A DNA stretch of 58,054 nucleotides from Gammaproteobacteria bacterium (lineage in GTDB: Bacteria; Pseudomonadota; Gammaproteobacteria; Ga0077536): the NCBI GenBank assembly GCA_020845935.1, contig JADLEV010000053.1, positions 1 to 58,054 on the forward strand. The letters are read 5' to 3'. The notes below the pieces were generated by a model. The model did no database searches, was not told the origin of the DNA, and was given only the letters and a program-made list of their open reading frames with translations. Positions within the stretch are counted from its first letter, which is position 1, and the number at the start of each line of letters is the position of its first letter. The translations under genes and the position numbers were made by a program. Shown one piece after another: positions 3,167-47,303 of this stretch.

Positions 3167-4057
3167 TCAGGGCGTCGTGCCGCACAGGCGCGCGAGGTTG
3201 ACGAACTCGCGCACCAGCCGCGAGCCGTTGCCCGCCTTCCAGGCGACGACGATCGAGACCATCGGCGCGGGATCGCAGGCCAGCGGCCGAAAGGTCACTC
3301 CGGCCGGCAGCAGCGCCACCAGCGACTCCGGCAACCGCGCAAAACCAAGCCCCTCTTGCACCAGTTGGATGTGACCGAGCACGTTGTCCGCGTTCGACAC
3401 CGCGTGCATGCGGATGCGGGCCTCGCGGTACAGCGCCGCGGTGGCGTCGTGCAGTGCCGGCGCCAGCGACCGCTCCATCGTGATGCAGGGCAGGTCGTCG
3501 AGGCTCTTGACCGGAATCTTCTTGCGCCGCGCGAGCGCATGATGCGACGGCAGCACGAGCACGATAGGCTCGCGCAGCAGTTCCAGCAGTTCGAGATCGC
3601 CGGCCGCGGTCGGACCGCGCATGAAGGCGACATCGAGCGTGCCGGAGCGGAGGCCGGCCAGCGGCTCGACGGTGTACTTGCTGTGCAGGATCAGCCGCAG
3701 ATCGGGCAGGTGCTTCGCCACCAGCGGACGCAGTGCCGGCAGGATCCTCACATCGGCGGACGGAAAAGTACCGACCGACAGATCACCGGCGCGGCCGTCC
3801 GCCGCCTGCCGCGCCAGGCGCCGGGCATGCTCGACCCGGCCGAGAATGTCCCTGGCCTGATGCAGGAAGATCCGGCCGGCATTGGTCAGCGCGACATGCT
3901 GCCGGCTGCGATCGAGCAACCGGACGCCGACCGATTTTTCGAGCTGGCGGATCTGTTGGCTCAGCGACGGTTGCGCGGTATGCAGTTGGGCAGCGGCGCG
4001 GGTGAAATTCAGCTCTTCCGCGACCGCCACGAAGTATCGAAGATGGCGGAGTTCCAC
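3167..4057 (-). CDS. LysR-family transcriptional regulator
   Basis: C-terminal part of the 808 aa ORF; GTG start giving VELRHLRYFVAVAEELNFTRAAAQLHTAQPSLSQQIRQLE (LysR HTH) plus effector domain. Confidence 0.93.
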   Translation of the reverse strand: MELRHLRYFVAVAEELNFTRAAAQLHTAQPSLSQQIRQLEKSVGVRLLDRSRQHVALTNAGRIFLHQARDILGRVEHARRLARQAADGRAGDLSVGTFPSADVRILPALRPLVAKHLPDLRLILHSKYTVEPLAGLRSGTLDVAFMRGPTAAGDLELLELLREPIVLVLPSHHALARRKKIPVKSLDDLPCITMERSLAPALHDATAALYREARIRMHAVSNADNVLGHIQLVQEGLGFARLPESLVALLPAGVTFRPLACDPAPMVSIVVAWKAGNGSRLVREFVNLARLCGTTP

Positions 4058-4366
4058 GCCGGCAAGGCTAGCAGTCCGGCGGGCGGCGCACCACCTCGGA
4101 CTCGTGCCGGACGCGACGGTACGCAGCAACCATGCTGGCCGGGCTCTGGAACTTCGTCGGCGGCACGTTGAAGACCGACACGGCGCGACCTCCTCGTGTG
4201 CAATGAACTGCGTTTGCCGGCAACAGGAAATGTTTGGCCCTGTCGATGAGTTGCACCAGTCCACGCAGTCGCCGCAGCTGACAAGCTCCGCGAATCGCCG
4301 GACAATCGGCTGGCGCTGATCGCACCGGAAGGAGGTTGCGGTGCGAACGGCGATCACCGCGATCGG

Positions 4367-5005
4367 TTGGAATTCCTTGTGAGGTGGCTCATGTCCCATG
4401 AAACGAACAGGCCCATGCCCGGGCAGATCCGCGGCTCCATGTTGACCTCGGCACGTGCCCTGGTGGCGGGCGCAGCGTTCGCGTTGTCGGCCCTGCTGGC
4501 GCAACCGGTCACCGCGCAGCAGGGCGATGCCGCGCCGCCGCCGCAGCTCGAGTTCGTGTTCGCGCTGCGGGCCGAGGTCGATGCGCCGATCAAGATCGGC
4601 ACCGTCGCCGGCCGCGAGCGGCGCATCGTGCCGATTCTCGGCGGCACCTTCGAAGGGCCGGGCTATGGCGGCGCTGCGCTGCGCGGCCGCGTCGTCCCCG
4701 GCGGTGCGGACTACCAGGAAATCCAGCCGGACGGCTTTTCCCAACTGGAAGCGCGCTACGTGCTGGAGACGGAACAGGGCGAGCTGATCTACGTCGTCAA
4801 TCGGGGCATACGGCATGCACCGCCGGAGGTCATGGCGAAGCTCAATGCGGGGCAGGCGGTCGATCAAGCACAGCTCTACATGCGCGTGGTGCCGACCTTC
4901 GAGACCACCGCGCCACGGCTGCAATGGCTGACGCGGGCGATCTTCATCACCACCGGCGAGCGGCATCCGAACGGTGTGGTGATCCGCTTCTATCGGATCA
5001 ACTGA
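4367..5005 (+). CDS. DUF3237-like exported protein
   Basis: ORF of 212 aa; signal region, then LEFVFALRAEVDAPIKIGTVAGRERRIVPILGGTFEGPGYGG...RGRVVPGGADYQ, typical of DUF3237; the true start may be an internal Met. Confidence 0.8.
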   Translation: MEFLVRWLMSHETNRPMPGQIRGSMLTSARALVAGAAFALSALLAQPVTAQQGDAAPPPQLEFVFALRAEVDAPIKIGTVAGRERRIVPILGGTFEGPGYGGAALRGRVVPGGADYQEIQPDGFSQLEARYVLETEQGELIYVVNRGIRHAPPEVMAKLNAGQAVDQAQLYMRVVPTFETTAPRLQWLTRAIFITTGERHPNGVVIRFYRIN

Positions 5006-38764: not shown

Positions 38765-39772
38765 CTACTGTTTGATTGCGTTGATGTCCGCGCTGGCGTC
38801 GTCGAGCGCCAGTGAGTAACCCAACGACACATAGTGGAAGCGGCGATCGGTGTAGTCGTCATGCAGCGCGACGCCGAGGTTGTACCTGGTCCCGGCCGCC
38901 AGCGCATGCGAGCCGGCGCCGGCCGCGAGCTTGCGGGTGAAGACCACGGTCCACTTGCCGCCCTCGATGCCGCCGGTCGCGAGCCCCGGGGCCGCCGTGG
39001 TCTTGCGGCCATCGAGCACGTAGCCGTGTTGCGGCTCCTCGCTGCTGCGGTATTGCAGCAGTTCGAGGAACTTGCCGCCGGCCAATGCCGCCGCGATGTC
39101 GGTATCGGGCGCGAGCTTGTCCCAGCCGCCACGCGGCGAATTGCGCAATTCGATTGCGGTCCTGCTTTCGCGTAGGTACTTGGTTGGGCCATCGGCCTGG
39201 ATGTTGAGCGCCTTGGCGCTGGCGTGCTTGGCCGCGTCGGCACTGACATCGGGCATGCTGCGCAGGTCATGATGACAGCTTGCCCAGCAACCGCCCTCGG
39301 CACCGAACAGCACATCCTTGCCAACGCTCAGCATCAGTGCCGCCTTGACCTGATTCTTCGCATCCATCTTGGTACCGCTGACGAACTTGGTGTCCGCCCA
39401 TTGCAGCCGGACGTAGAGATTGGTGCCGTCGTGCGCCGCCTGTACCGTGACCGGCACCTGGCCGGGCTTGCCGTCGGCCGCGCCGGAGGCGATGCCGTCG
39501 CGCTTGCCGGAGACGATCTTGTCACCGATATCCGCGGTCTCCTTGTCGTGACAACTGGCGCAGGACTCGCCGTTGCGCAGCGCGCGCGAGCCGCTGTGAT
39601 CCGGGCCGTTCAATACCCATTCGAGGCTCGCGGTGCCGGGAAAGAACAGACCGATCTCCTTTGCCGGGACCTTGCTCCAGTCCGGTGCTGCCGCCGCTGT
39701 CGCGCCGGTGATGGTCAACAGGGCGCCGCCGATCGCGACGGCGAGTGTTCGTTGCTGGATTGCTCTATTCAT
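38765..39772 (-). CDS. c-type cytochrome with ethylbenzene-dehydrogenase-type haem-binding domain
   Basis: 335 aa from MNRAIQQRT at 39772; CASCHDKE and CWASCHHD; EB_dh-like C-terminus; the upstream extension to 40513 is frame-shadow. Confidence 0.83.
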   Translation of the reverse strand: MNRAIQQRTLAVAIGGALLTITGATAAAAPDWSKVPAKEIGLFFPGTASLEWVLNGPDHSGSRALRNGESCASCHDKETADIGDKIVSGKRDGIASGAADGKPGQVPVTVQAAHDGTNLYVRLQWADTKFVSGTKMDAKNQVKAALMLSVGKDVLFGAEGGCWASCHHDLRSMPDVSADAAKHASAKALNIQADGPTKYLRESRTAIELRNSPRGGWDKLAPDTDIAAALAGGKFLELLQYRSSEEPQHGYVLDGRKTTAAPGLATGGIEGGKWTVVFTRKLAAGAGSHALAAGTRYNLGVALHDDYTDRRFHYVSLGYSLALDDASADINAIKQ

Positions 39773-39786
39773 GGACCTTCCCCCTT

Positions 39787-40422
39787 TTACAGAGTGGTGT
39801 CTTCGTCTGCGGCCGCTTCGGCTTCGAGCTGCTTGTGGATCGGCTTGTGCGCGATCCCCTTGTGGCAGTCGATGCAGGTCTCGCCGTTCTTCTCGGCGAG
39901 TTCGTGTTGATGTTGCGCCCGTTGCTTCTGCATGCTCTTGTCCATGCCCTTGAAGCCGTGGCAATTGCGGCATTCGAGCGAGTCGTTCTTCTTCAGGCGC
40001 GCCCATTCCTTCTGCGCCAGCGAGAGCCGCTTGGCCTCGAACTTCTCCATCGTGTCGATGCTGCCAATGACCTTGTGCCAGAGCTCGTTGGTCGCCTGGA
40101 TCTTGCGCATCAATTTCGGTGTCCAGGCCTTCGGCACATGGCAGTCGGAGCAGATCGCGCGCACTCCGGAGCGGTTCGAGTAATGGATCGTCTGCTGATA
40201 TTCCTGGTAGACCGTATTGCGCATCTCGTGGCAGGAAATGCAGAAGGTCAGTGTATTGGTCGCTTCCATCGCGGTGGTGAAGCCGCCCCAGAAGATGACG
40301 CCACCGATGCCGCCGCTGAGCAGCAGCGCCAGCATGGAATACTTCGCCGATGGGCGACGCAGGATGCGCCAGGTGCGCCGCAGCATTCCTGCCTCGGGCG
40401 CGTCGTCGTTCGTGGTTGTCAT
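39787..40422 (-). CDS. NapC/NirT-family tetrahaem cytochrome c
   Basis: 211 aa; N-terminal TM; four CxxCH (CISCH, CSDCH, CRNCH, CIDCH). Confidence 0.92.
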   Translation of the reverse strand: MTTTNDDAPEAGMLRRTWRILRRPSAKYSMLALLLSGGIGGVIFWGGFTTAMEATNTLTFCISCHEMRNTVYQEYQQTIHYSNRSGVRAICSDCHVPKAWTPKLMRKIQATNELWHKVIGSIDTMEKFEAKRLSLAQKEWARLKKNDSLECRNCHGFKGMDKSMQKQRAQHQHELAEKNGETCIDCHKGIAHKPIHKQLEAEAAADEDTTL

Positions 40423-40516
40423 GTGTTTCCTCGGCGCGAACGCGCCTGCAATCCGGTATGGACCCGTCGGGTCGGAGACGGACCGGCCGGGGGCCGGCCG
40501 GTCCGTAAGTCATCGG

Positions 40517-42190
<1,674 letters not shown>

Positions 42191-43694: not shown

Positions 43695-44858
43695 TTACGC
43701 GCCGCCGCGCAGCTCGTGCGCGGCGGTCACCATCGCCCGCATCTTCTGGATGGCGATCTCGAGGCTGTTGACCGGCCGGTTGGAGAAGGTGGCGAAACCG
43801 CAGTCCGGATTCAAGAATAGGCGCTCCGGCGGATAGTGTTGCAGGGCGCGCTCGATGCGGGCGCGGATCTCGGCGACCGTTTCAATCCGCGGCGTCCGCG
43901 GATTGATCACCCCGAGGCCGAGTTCCTTGCCGGCCAGCGGCACGAGTTCTCCTGCACGTTCGGTCGCGTATTCGAGCACGACCTGATCGACCTTCATCCG
44001 TTCGAGATACGGCGCGAGCGGATGATAGCCGCCGCGCAGCAAGGTCGCTTCGTTGGTGCTCCAGTTGCCGCGGCAGATGTGCAGGCCGATGCGTGCGCCG
44101 CGCGACGTCGCAGCGAACCCGGCGGTGACCTGATTGAGCAGTGCCACCGCGAACTCCAGTTCCTCTGCCGGATCGGCGGCGGCCGCGAGCGCGGCGCACA
44201 TGAAGGTCCGGGTCTGGCCCTGGGTGAACACGACTTCGGTCAGCACCGGTTCATCGAACTGGATGAACGCGGCGCCGGCGTCGAGCAACTCGCCAAGCTC
44301 CTCGCGCAGCAGCGCGACGACATCGACGCCGAGCGCTTCCTTGCTGTCGTAGGCATGACCACAGGCTTCGCGGACGAACATGCCGCGCGTCAGCAGATAC
44401 GGCCCGGGCAACGTGACCTTGATCGGCTTGCCGGTATGTTGCTGTGCGAAGCGCAGATCGTCGGCAACCAGCGGCCGCGCGCGGCGGACCCTGCCGACGC
44501 AGGTTGCGTTGCTGATCGAGTAGGCCGGCACGTCGAGCGATTGCAGGATGCGCTCGAACGCGACCTTGTCCTCGATGATCTCGAGCATGTCGGCCAGCGT
44601 CATCATCGCGACGCCGTCGAGCTTTTCCGCGACGAACGAGAAATACGAATCGCGCCGCTGCTCGCCGTCGGTGACCAGATCGATGCCGCAGTCCTCCTGC
44701 ACCCGCAGCAGCTCGCGCACCGCCGCGTCGGCGAGCCGATCGAACTCCGCGGGGTCGAGCCGGCCGGCGCGCTTCGCCTTCTGCGCCCGCAACAGTTCCG
44801 GCGAGCGCGGCCAGCTGCCGACGGTGGTCACCGCGAGCGGTGGCAGTGACGCGGTCAT
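43695..44858 (-). CDS. cobalamin-independent methionine synthase-like protein, core/C-terminal domain only
   Basis: 387 aa; TTVGSWPRSPEL, QFDEPVLTE, HICRGN and NPDCGF (Zn-site His/Cys pattern). Confidence 0.9.
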   Translation of the reverse strand: MTASLPPLAVTTVGSWPRSPELLRAQKAKRAGRLDPAEFDRLADAAVRELLRVQEDCGIDLVTDGEQRRDSYFSFVAEKLDGVAMMTLADMLEIIEDKVAFERILQSLDVPAYSISNATCVGRVRRARPLVADDLRFAQQHTGKPIKVTLPGPYLLTRGMFVREACGHAYDSKEALGVDVVALLREELGELLDAGAAFIQFDEPVLTEVVFTQGQTRTFMCAALAAAADPAEELEFAVALLNQVTAGFAATSRGARIGLHICRGNWSTNEATLLRGGYHPLAPYLERMKVDQVVLEYATERAGELVPLAGKELGLGVINPRTPRIETVAEIRARIERALQHYPPERLFLNPDCGFATFSNRPVNSLEIAIQKMRAMVTAAHELRGGA

Positions 44859-45671
44859 CTATCGGCCAGCGAAGAACTGCTGGTTGGCGCAGGCGGCGGT
44901 CAGCAGTTCGAAGCCGTTGACCCGGCCCGGCTCCCAGCGCTTGAGCCCTTCGAGATCCATCATCTCGCGGTGTTTCGGATTGGCGTAATCCATCGCCATC
45001 AGCGCGTGCAGGAACGGTGCCTCGCGCTCGCGCGGGAACTCGTGGCGCACGGTGAACACGCAATGATCGTAGCGCCCGGTCGTCGTCAGGATCCGATAGC
45101 GGGCCGGGTCGATGGTGCCGTCCGCGGTCCAGCTGTTCCAGTTGAGGTCTATGAGACAGCTCGCCGCCGCTTCCTGCCGTTGCAGACAGCGGAACGCTTC
45201 CAGTTCGCCGCCGATGTGATCGCCATTTTTGCCGACCGCCAGATCGAAGCGCCGCGTGACGTAATCGGTTTCGCCGAGGCCGTGCCGCAGCAGATGCTCC
45301 TTCGGGATCAGCGTTGCCTGCGGCGAATCTTGCGCGCCGAAGGCGACCGTCTTGCCGCGCAGATCGGCCAGCGTGGCGATCGGGCCATCGCTCGCGACGA
45401 TGAGGTGACTGCATCGATCGCGATCGGTGTCGCGCATCGCGATCGCGCGGCAGCCATTTTCGGAGCGGCGCTGCGCGTCGAGCCAGGCGAGCGGCGAGTT
45501 CCAGGCGACCTCGATGCCGCCCGCGAGCAATGCACTCACCTGCAATTCGTAATTGGTGTAGAAAACCGTGTCCATCGGGACTTCGTTGGCTTCGAAGAAG
45601 TCGCGGATGATGTCCCAGATGACCGAGACCTTGGGGTCGTACAACACGGCACCGACGATGATGGGTTGCAT
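44859..45671 (-). CDS. PhnD/SsuA-like substrate-binding-fold protein without signal peptide
   Basis: 270 aa from MQPIIVGAVLYDPKV; LADLRGKTVAFGAQDSPQATLIPKEHL; no export signal. Confidence 0.82.
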   Translation of the reverse strand: MQPIIVGAVLYDPKVSVIWDIIRDFFEANEVPMDTVFYTNYELQVSALLAGGIEVAWNSPLAWLDAQRRSENGCRAIAMRDTDRDRCSHLIVASDGPIATLADLRGKTVAFGAQDSPQATLIPKEHLLRHGLGETDYVTRRFDLAVGKNGDHIGGELEAFRCLQRQEAAASCLIDLNWNSWTADGTIDPARYRILTTTGRYDHCVFTVRHEFPREREAPFLHALMAMDYANPKHREMMDLEGLKRWEPGRVNGFELLTAACANQQFFAGR

Positions 45672-45688
45672 GGAATTCTCCTGCTTGG

Positions 45689-46132
45689 TCAAGTCAATTC
45701 CAGACGCGGCTCGAACGCGACGCACGCGCGCAAGGTCTGGTAGATCGGTGATCGGCACAGCACATCGTGCCACAGTGCGTGAATGCCGGCGGGGTCTTCC
45801 AGGGTATCGACGTACAGCGTGATCCGGATCGCGACGAAGCGCGGCACGCCTTGTTCGCCGACGGTACCGAGCGCCGCGAGTGGCTGCGCCAGTTCGGCGT
45901 GCAGCACGGCCTCGATCCGATCGAGCGTGAGCCGGCGGCGCCGTGCCAGCCGGTCGAGACCGGTGACCAGCTCGCCTGCCGCGGCGCCGAGCAGATAGTC
46001 GCAGGCAGTGAGGTTGGGATCATTCTCGTCGAAGGTCAGTGGCGCACCGATCCGGAACTCGCACTTGCGCACATAGGCCCGGGCCGCACCATTGCCCGCG
46101 GTCAGCCGCAGGCTGTGCCGATGCGTTTCCAC
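45689..46132 (-). CDS. OsmC-like family protein
   Basis: GTG start VETHRHSLRLTAGNG; OsmC-like pattern with LCRSPIYQTL; longer ORF to 46207 in frame. Confidence 0.65.
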   Translation of the reverse strand: METHRHSLRLTAGNGAARAYVRKCEFRIGAPLTFDENDPNLTACDYLLGAAAGELVTGLDRLARRRRLTLDRIEAVLHAELAQPLAALGTVGEQGVPRFVAIRITLYVDTLEDPAGIHALWHDVLCRSPIYQTLRACVAFEPRLELT

Positions 46133-46151
46133 GCTCCTGCTCGATGCGGGA

Positions 46152-47303
46152 TCAGGCGAACAACGGCATCCCGCACTCGGCCTTGCCGATGAAATCCCAC
46201 AGCGCATCGGAAACCGGCGCCATCACCGAGGCCGCACGGCTGTCGCGGAAGAAACGCTCGACCGCGATGTCCTTGCGATAGGCCGCACCGCCGCACACGC
46301 GCATCGCCAGGTCGTGGACTTCGAGCGAGGTCTCGGCGCCGGTCACCTTGCTTTGCAGTACGCGCAACTGTGCGTCGTCGCGGCCACGCTCGATGGCGTC
46401 GATCGCATCAATCAGCAGCGCGCGCGACATATCGATCTTGGTCCGCATCCGCGCGACATTGCCGCGCACTTGCGGGAACTCCGCGATCTTCGCGCCGGAG
46501 TAATCGTAGCCCTGACCGGTGACATGGGCGACGGTACGCCGCAGCACCCCTTCCATCATTCCGGTCGACACCGCGTGGTTCTGCACGCTGAACCAGGGCA
46601 GAACCACACCCATCATCAGATCGAAACCCTTGCCGTCCGCGCCGAGGCGATTCGCCGCGGGGATCTCGACATCGACCGCTCCGATCGGCGCCGAGGCGTT
46701 GGCGCGCAGGCCGAGCCCTTGGTAGCGATCGCCCAGCGTCAATCCCGGGGCACGGCTCGGTACCCACCAGAGGCTCGACAGGCCTTCGGCTGCGGCGGGT
46801 TTCGACGACCAGATATACAGATCGCATTCACCGGCGGAGGTGATCAGCTGTTTGTTCGCGTTGAGCAGAATGGTGTCGTTCGGGGCTGGCGTCGCGGTGC
46901 TGACCGGCACCCAGAAATGACTGCGCGAACCGAACTCGGAGAACGCCAGCGTCGTCAGGTGCTTGCCGGCGGCGATGGCGCGGCGCAGGTCCGGATCGCC
47001 GTGCGCTTCAATGACCGCGCTGCCGCAGTAATGCATCTTCATCACCATCGCGGTTGAGGGGCACTCCCGCGCGATCCGCTCGCACACGGCCGCCGCGGCG
47101 CGCAGCCCCTGGCCGTGGCCACCGACCTCGCGTGCGCTGATCAGACCGAGCAGTCCGGCCGCGCGCAGGGCTTCGATGTTCTCGCGCGGAAACCGCGCCT
47201 CGACATCGTTATCGCGCGCGTGCTTCTGAATGGTGTCGGCGGCGATGCGATCGACCGCCGTGAGCAATGCGCTGCCGCTCTGATCGAGGTTGAAACTTTG
47301 CAT
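46152..47303 (-). CDS. acyl-CoA dehydrogenase-fold flavoprotein (possibly DszC/SfnB-like monooxygenase)
   Basis: 383 aa; LITSAGECDLY, CGGAAYRKDIAVERFFRDSRAASVMAPVSDALWDFIG. Confidence 0.88.
   Translation of the reverse strand: MQSFNLDQSGSALLTAVDRIAADTIQKHARDNDVEARFPRENIEALRAAGLLGLISAREVGGHGQGLRAAAAVCERIARECPSTAMVMKMHYCGSAVIEAHGDPDLRRAIAAGKHLTTLAFSEFGSRSHFWVPVSTATPAPNDTILLNANKQLITSAGECDLYIWSSKPAAAEGLSSLWWVPSRAPGLTLGDRYQGLGLRANASAPIGAVDVEIPAANRLGADGKGFDLMMGVVLPWFSVQNHAVSTGMMEGVLRRTVAHVTGQGYDYSGAKIAEFPQVRGNVARMRTKIDMSRALLIDAIDAIERGRDDAQLRVLQSKVTGAETSLEVHDLAMRVCGGAAYRKDIAVERFFRDSRAASVMAPVSDALWDFIGKAECGMPLFA

Follow-up and report, generated by a model that had tools for sequence, protein, structure and literature searches.

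What process is served by the four adjacent genes at positions 43,695 to 47,303 of a 58,054-nucleotide stretch of gammaproteobacterial DNA (Ga0077536 lineage; assembly GCA_020845935.1, contig JADLEV010000053.1, forward strand; the whole stretch is hereafter the window)? The genes encode an acyl-CoA dehydrogenase (ACAD)-fold flavoprotein, an OsmC-like protein, a PhnD-like substrate-binding protein (SBP), and a core-MetE-like enzyme, and a preliminary description of the locus proposed that they form a methyl/sulfur pathway acting on organosulfur compounds. Methyl or chalcogen transfer remains plausible, but the organosulfur part of that proposal does not fare as well: a Cys/selenocysteine (Sec) loop at residue 221 of the MetE-like family, TusA/DsrE partners, and linkage to selD, selA, and mnmH lead us to think that the module probably serves selenium handling or metabolism instead. 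The features concerned are as follows.

46152-47303, minus strand: ACAD-fold flavoprotein, Rv1679/FadE16-like, 383 aa (Pfam ACAD domains; NF049984, 370 bits against a cut-off of 600; 22-sequence alignment).
45689-46132, minus strand: OsmC-like protein without conserved catalytic cysteines, ~147 aa (PF02566, 26.7 bits against a cut-off of 27.5; column counts over 30 homologues).
44859-45671, minus strand: PhnD/PtxB-fold protein, Rv1680-like, no apparent signal peptide, 270 aa (PF12974; NF049985, 223 bits against a cut-off of 400; AlphaFold and Foldseek).
43695-44858, minus strand: core-MetE-like Zn enzyme, 387 aa (PF01717; AlphaFold and Foldseek; catalytic residues).
44196-44198, minus strand: Cys221 codon of the MetE-like gene, an invariant Cys or Sec in the family (56 Cys and 5 TGA in 61 members).

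The genes are separated by ~19, 17, and 0 bp, all on the minus strand, as expected from the co-directional, tightly spaced row first reported. The GTG start of the OsmC-like gene was placed by homologue length, since the start of the 172-aa open reading frame would overlap the ACAD gene; the PhnD-like gene was taken to start at an ATG, the GTG at 45773 (the listed reading-frame start) being judged too early. None of the four proteins reaches an NCBIfam curated cut-off.

Do the four genes belong together? A profile of the SBP run against GTDB representative genomes matched 461 relatives, of which we examined the best 80 loci, many of them contigs of metagenome-assembled genomes (MAGs). All four genes occur together in 27 of the 32 closest loci (54-68% SBP identity), the other five being mostly truncated at contig ends, and co-occurrence elsewhere, which the preliminary description had set as a check, is thereby established. 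These 32 loci span Planctomycetota, Verrucomicrobiota, Chloroflexota, Acidobacteriota, Armatimonadota, Nitrospirota, Actinomycetota, and one Nitrososphaerota archaeon. The order is OsmC-ACAD-SBP-MetE in 11 loci and OsmC-SBP-MetE-ACAD in 8, so the association has outlasted rearrangement. Co-occurrence across phyla is far beyond chance, and the case that ACAD, OsmC, SBP, and MetE constitute one functional module is very strong. The next 48 loci hold an ACAD-SBP pair, in most cases with a gene for an AurF-like diiron protein after it. This protein (weak Pfam match only) lies directly after the SBP in 44 loci from several phyla (L074-L119; e.g., L101:10812-12023), and ACAD-SBP-AurF-like forms a second conserved trio, likewise linked to selA and selD in Variovorax.

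In the sample of the window's class, a close SBP was found only in the window's own genome, and the tree places the window MetE in a mixed-phylum clade of four-gene loci (support 99/96), nearest to Chloroflexota, which together suggest horizontal transfer. A search of plasmids with the OsmC protein gave no match, and the Verrucomicrobiota sample held one carrier of the MetE family in 195.

The MetE-like protein carries the most specific clue. As first reported, it is 387 aa long, retains the Zn site, and lacks the folate-binding half: Pfam finds a single Meth_synt_2 domain, and over 27 sequences the Zn ligands H260, C262, E296, and C353 are invariant, as are the homocysteine residues S15, E66, and D202 (aligned to Thermotoga maritima MetE). 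The AlphaFold model has a predicted local distance difference test (pLDDT) score of 88, and the nearest folds by Foldseek are MetE and MesD. Assignment to the MesA-D/MetE group, suggested earlier, is thus borne out by fold and residues but not by score, the curated methionine synthase cut-offs being far from reached (187 vs. 406 bits; 107 vs. 392). Between a strand and a helix lies an insertion that has no counterpart in MesD and bears an invariant F-M-C motif containing Cys221. Over 61 family members this position is Cys in 56 and an in-frame TGA in 5. In L043, L044, L048, and L113 the sole TGA interrupting the homologous region falls precisely at the invariant Cys (the fifth case is L134/L158); past the TGA, reading frame and homology carry on. 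The tree requires at least two independent Cys/Sec switches. The window protein is the Cys form, so that it is its relatives that make up a candidate family of MetE-fold selenoproteins, judged by their sequences. Neither a 2026 selenoproteome review (searched for methionine synthase, MetE, and uroporphyrinogen) nor the deep-Sep paper (methionine synthase, methyltransferase) mentions such proteins, and none of the open-access papers found describes the module or a MetE-like selenoprotein, subscription papers having been outside the search.

Selenium genes adjoin the module in several lineages. In Verrucomicrobiales (L050) the order is selA-[OsmC-ACAD-SBP-MetE]-NOS-selD-desulfurase-mnmH, the desulfurase being of the class-V aminotransferase type and mnmH the same gene as selU; selD lies near the module in L046 of the same order as well. 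In two Chloroflexota loci (L059, L061), selD is directly upstream of OsmC-ACAD-SBP-MetE on the same strand. The shorter versions show the same company: in Variovorax, where selD is near ACAD-SBP in five loci, the order is selA-ACAD-SBP-AurF-like-selD, with mnmH; selD and selA are near ACAD-SBP in Novimethylophilus (L102), selD in Miltoncostaea (L034), and selA adjoins TusA-MetE in Paracoccus. With one selD per ~5-Mb genome, ~0.3 coincidences would be expected over ~80 loci, and five separate selD-linked lineages give P ~ 1.6e-5, a rough estimate with lineages grouped by eye. SelD scores above cut-off in 29-30 of 34 module genomes (37 records were searched, these 34 and three plasmids, and the 30 matches include a Miltoncostaea plasmid), in 43 of 47 ACAD-SBP genomes, and in the window's own genome. 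Among Planctomycetota it is present in 20 of 21 genomes with the MetE family and in 86 of 128 others (Fisher's exact test: P = 0.005, uncorrected for kinship). The same co-occurrence test in Burkholderiales was set aside as uninformative, with four SBP carriers only and a baseline of 75%.

Three further genes were seen in these neighborhoods. In Verrucomicrobiales, a gene with a nitric oxide synthase (NOS) oxygenase domain separates the module from selD (L046:3087-4097 and L050:8482-9648, both minus strand). A radical SAM protein of the Rv1681 type lies near ACAD-SBP in Miltoncostaea (L034:2747-3580) and Mycolicibacterium vanbaalenii (L035:9038-9721), as in Mycobacterium tuberculosis, and in M. 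vanbaalenii a deiodinase-like gene is also nearby.

A second architecture, frequent in Planctomycetota, joins the MetE-like enzyme to carrier proteins as TusA-DsrE-[TusA-OsmC-MetE], in places as fusions. The window's own genome (G000) has such a TusA-MetE fusion, 44% identical, on contig C49 (the same locus as L156; 4809-6272, minus strand). The gene beside it, at ~3180-4707 on the plus strand, belongs to the UGSC family (PF24696) and contains an in-frame TGA (GHUSSC), which suggests that selenocysteine is decoded in the window's host, even though neither selA nor selB turned up. A UGSC-type gene with an in-frame TGA also occurs on Paracoccus pBEN (L038:116-1899, minus strand), together with a partner gene and near SufS, TusA, DsrE, TusA-MetE, selA, and trxB; the partner gene has a relative in the UGSC fusion of the window's host.

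Several observations weigh against a role in selenium metabolism. The failure to find SelA and SelB concerns the window's own genome, which is 62.5% complete. The hairpin after the TGA (ACCCGC-GCGGGT, shared by three genes) is significant, as a structure like a selenocysteine insertion sequence, in just one of four TGA genes (z = -4.2), and the Cys221 loop has a pLDDT below 50, so that the model fixes no distance between Cys221 and Zn. Of the 80 loci scanned, just ~10 have selenium genes within 10 kb. No clear SelD was identified in 4-5 of the module genomes, that of the archaeon among them (partly incomplete MAGs), and the SelD baseline is high (71% in Planctomycetota, 75% in Burkholderiales), which makes SelD presence alone weak evidence. 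Sec may replace Cys in enzymes unrelated to selenium metabolism. Finally, the Rv1679-Rv1680 pair occurs in M. tuberculosis, which is not known to make selenocysteine.

What might the other three proteins contribute? The usual catalytic Glu was said to be missing from the ACAD, and indeed none of the 22 aligned members has Glu at the medium-chain acyl-CoA dehydrogenase (MCAD) position, where nearly all read MAP. The position used by isovaleryl-CoA dehydrogenase (IVD), where a Glu had been named as evidence against the initial proposal, likewise lacks it throughout the alignment. The suggested kinship to DszC/HpaH was not upheld. The nearest proteins in PDB and NCBIfam are short-chain acyl-CoA dehydrogenases (SCAD), acryloyl-CoA reductase, and the Rv1679 family; a monooxygenase of the DszC/HpaH/SfnB type was rejected on scores far below cut-off (DszC, 52 bits vs. 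850; SfnB, 84 vs. 431) and on the SCAD type of the nearest PDB chains. For the OsmC-like protein, the loss of the first, peroxidatic Cys holds (Asp or Glu in 29 of 30 homologues), but the second Cys, C151, described as retained, is private to the window (Cys in 0 of 29 other homologues) and is not to be taken as functional; an OsmC/Ohr peroxidase relying on it was therefore rejected. The PhnD-like protein begins within the fold (MQPIIVGAVLYDP) and, judged by eye, has no apparent signal peptide, and its neighbors in the window include no ABC transporter permease or ATPase genes, both as first described; nor do such genes constantly accompany the module in other loci. Its model (pLDDT 95) matches PhnD/PtxB by Foldseek, and NCBIfam ranks Rv1680 best, followed by the "putative selenate" SBP family TIGR04553. 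Residues R80, D83, D115, S116, D151, E156, H203, and C204 are invariant in 84 of 84 sequences, a D/H/C motif among them. With such a set, including His203-Cys204, the protein could equally well be an SBP-fold enzyme or the soluble substrate-binding chaperone first suggested. Just downstream of the module, the window holds genes for a cytochrome d1 (NirS-like) protein and an ethylbenzene-dehydrogenase-like haem protein (40517-42190 and 38765-40513, both minus strand).

How could these parts work together? In the scheme we propose, a methylated selenium (or sulfur) species would be captured by Cys/Sec221, acting as a thiol(ate) or selenol(ate); its methyl group would go to homocysteine on the Zn, yielding methionine, and TusA/DsrE/OsmC-type carriers would deliver the leftover per-selenide or persulfide to SelD. 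Supply or oxidation of the substrate might fall to the ACAD-like flavoprotein and the PhnD-fold protein, as might binding of an anion (selenophosphate or selenite, for example); their roles are the weakest part of the mechanism. That a single selenium-metabolism module operating by this Cys/Sec221-Zn-homocysteine-carrier scheme is the best explanation overall we judge about an even call. That a methyl-Se or methyl-S species bound at Cys/Sec221 is demethylated in a homocysteine-dependent reaction is put forward only tentatively. Equally tentative is the wider picture of a corrinoid-free, probably aerobic selenium-salvage pathway that extends over many phyla of bacteria and reaches at least one archaeon; in it, a Zn enzyme of the MetE fold with a Cys/Sec nucleophile would demethylate organoselenium onto homocysteine, and Se would move via TusA/DsrE/OsmC to SelD.

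The same parts can be read in terms of sulfur. TusA, DsrE, and OsmC are sulfur-carrier folds, most MetE-like members have Cys, and a clear SelD is missing from some of the module genomes, all of which would suit salvage of methanethiol or methyl-thioethers, with Sec merely the better nucleophile and the sel neighbors reflecting shared regulation or TusA/desulfurase traffic. Direct linkage to selD, selA, and mnmH across unrelated lineages would be unexpected under sulfur alone, however, and we regard this explanation as rather unlikely. That linkage to selD is shared by another possibility, the biosynthesis of a selenium-containing small molecule or cofactor from SelD selenophosphate. Here the PhnD-fold protein would bind selenophosphate, which is chemically near the phosphite and phosphonates bound by the PhnD/PtxB fold, and an ACAD-type flavoenzyme (with an AurF-like diiron protein in the shorter version) would be at hand; yet no transporter, synthetase, or product-tailoring genes are kept with the module and some carriers have no SelD, which makes such a product improbable.

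A folate-independent methionine synthase resembling MesD/MesX, in which the MetE-like protein would make methionine from a methyl donor generated by the ACAD-like flavoprotein and oxygen, accounts well for the conserved Zn and homocysteine residues and the nearest folds, and MesD too requires an oxygen-dependent partner (PMC7857596). It leaves the Cys/Sec loop and the sel genes unexplained, the scores lie far under the methionine synthase cut-offs, and the immediate neighbors scanned include no MesX (DUF1852) match, the scan for DUF1852 having been limited to these and not extended to the rest of the window or genome; we consider it quite improbable.

How does such a module compare with known systems? 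The known biology nearest to the proposed mechanism is that of MesD/MesX, whose methionine synthesis is oxygen dependent (PMC7857596), and of the mlp clusters, for whose anaerobic type 1 members methyl-selenide metabolism has been proposed with some biochemical support (Kountz and Balskus, PMC10418091). The MetE-like protein shares with MesA-MesD and the MetE catalytic domain the fold, the H/C/E/C Zn ligands, the S/E/D homocysteine residues, and the absence of a folate-binding half, and differs in its Cys/Sec221 insertion, its partner genes, its sub-cut-off scores, and its linkage to selenium genes. Like the module, mlp clusters hold methyltransferases of the UroD/MetE superfamily in an association with selenium use, but they depend on a corrinoid protein with its activase and occur in anaerobes only (PMC10418091); no such genes were seen at the module, which contains an ACAD and a PhnD-fold protein instead. 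YedF/YedE selenium trafficking similarly links TusA (SirA-like) and DsrE domains with SelD (PMC5322559), whereas the module-related TusA/DsrE are partners of, or fused with, OsmC and the MetE-like enzyme; that paper makes no mention of methionine synthase, acyl-CoA dehydrogenase, phosphonate, or OsmC. The adjacent mycobacterial genes Rv1679 (FadE16) and Rv1680 (NF049984, NF049985) are the best family matches for the ACAD and SBP, but both window proteins score under the family cut-offs listed above, and the mycobacterial and rhodococcal pairs examined have no adjoining MetE or OsmC. With the phosphite/phosphonate-binding proteins PtxB, PhnD, and HtxB the SBP shares its fold but not an apparent signal peptide or a transporter, and its eight invariant residues set it apart.

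The route by which aerobic bacteria bring organic or methylated selenium to SelD as selenide is largely unknown, and the module offers specific candidate genes for it. It also offers a candidate selenoprotein family, MetE-fold and marked by RTFM[C/U], with a testable active-site residue, and a wider context for the uncharacterized fadE16 and Rv1680 of M. tuberculosis. If the salvage pathway is real, it would mean a new way of assimilating selenium as well as a new family of selenoproteins.

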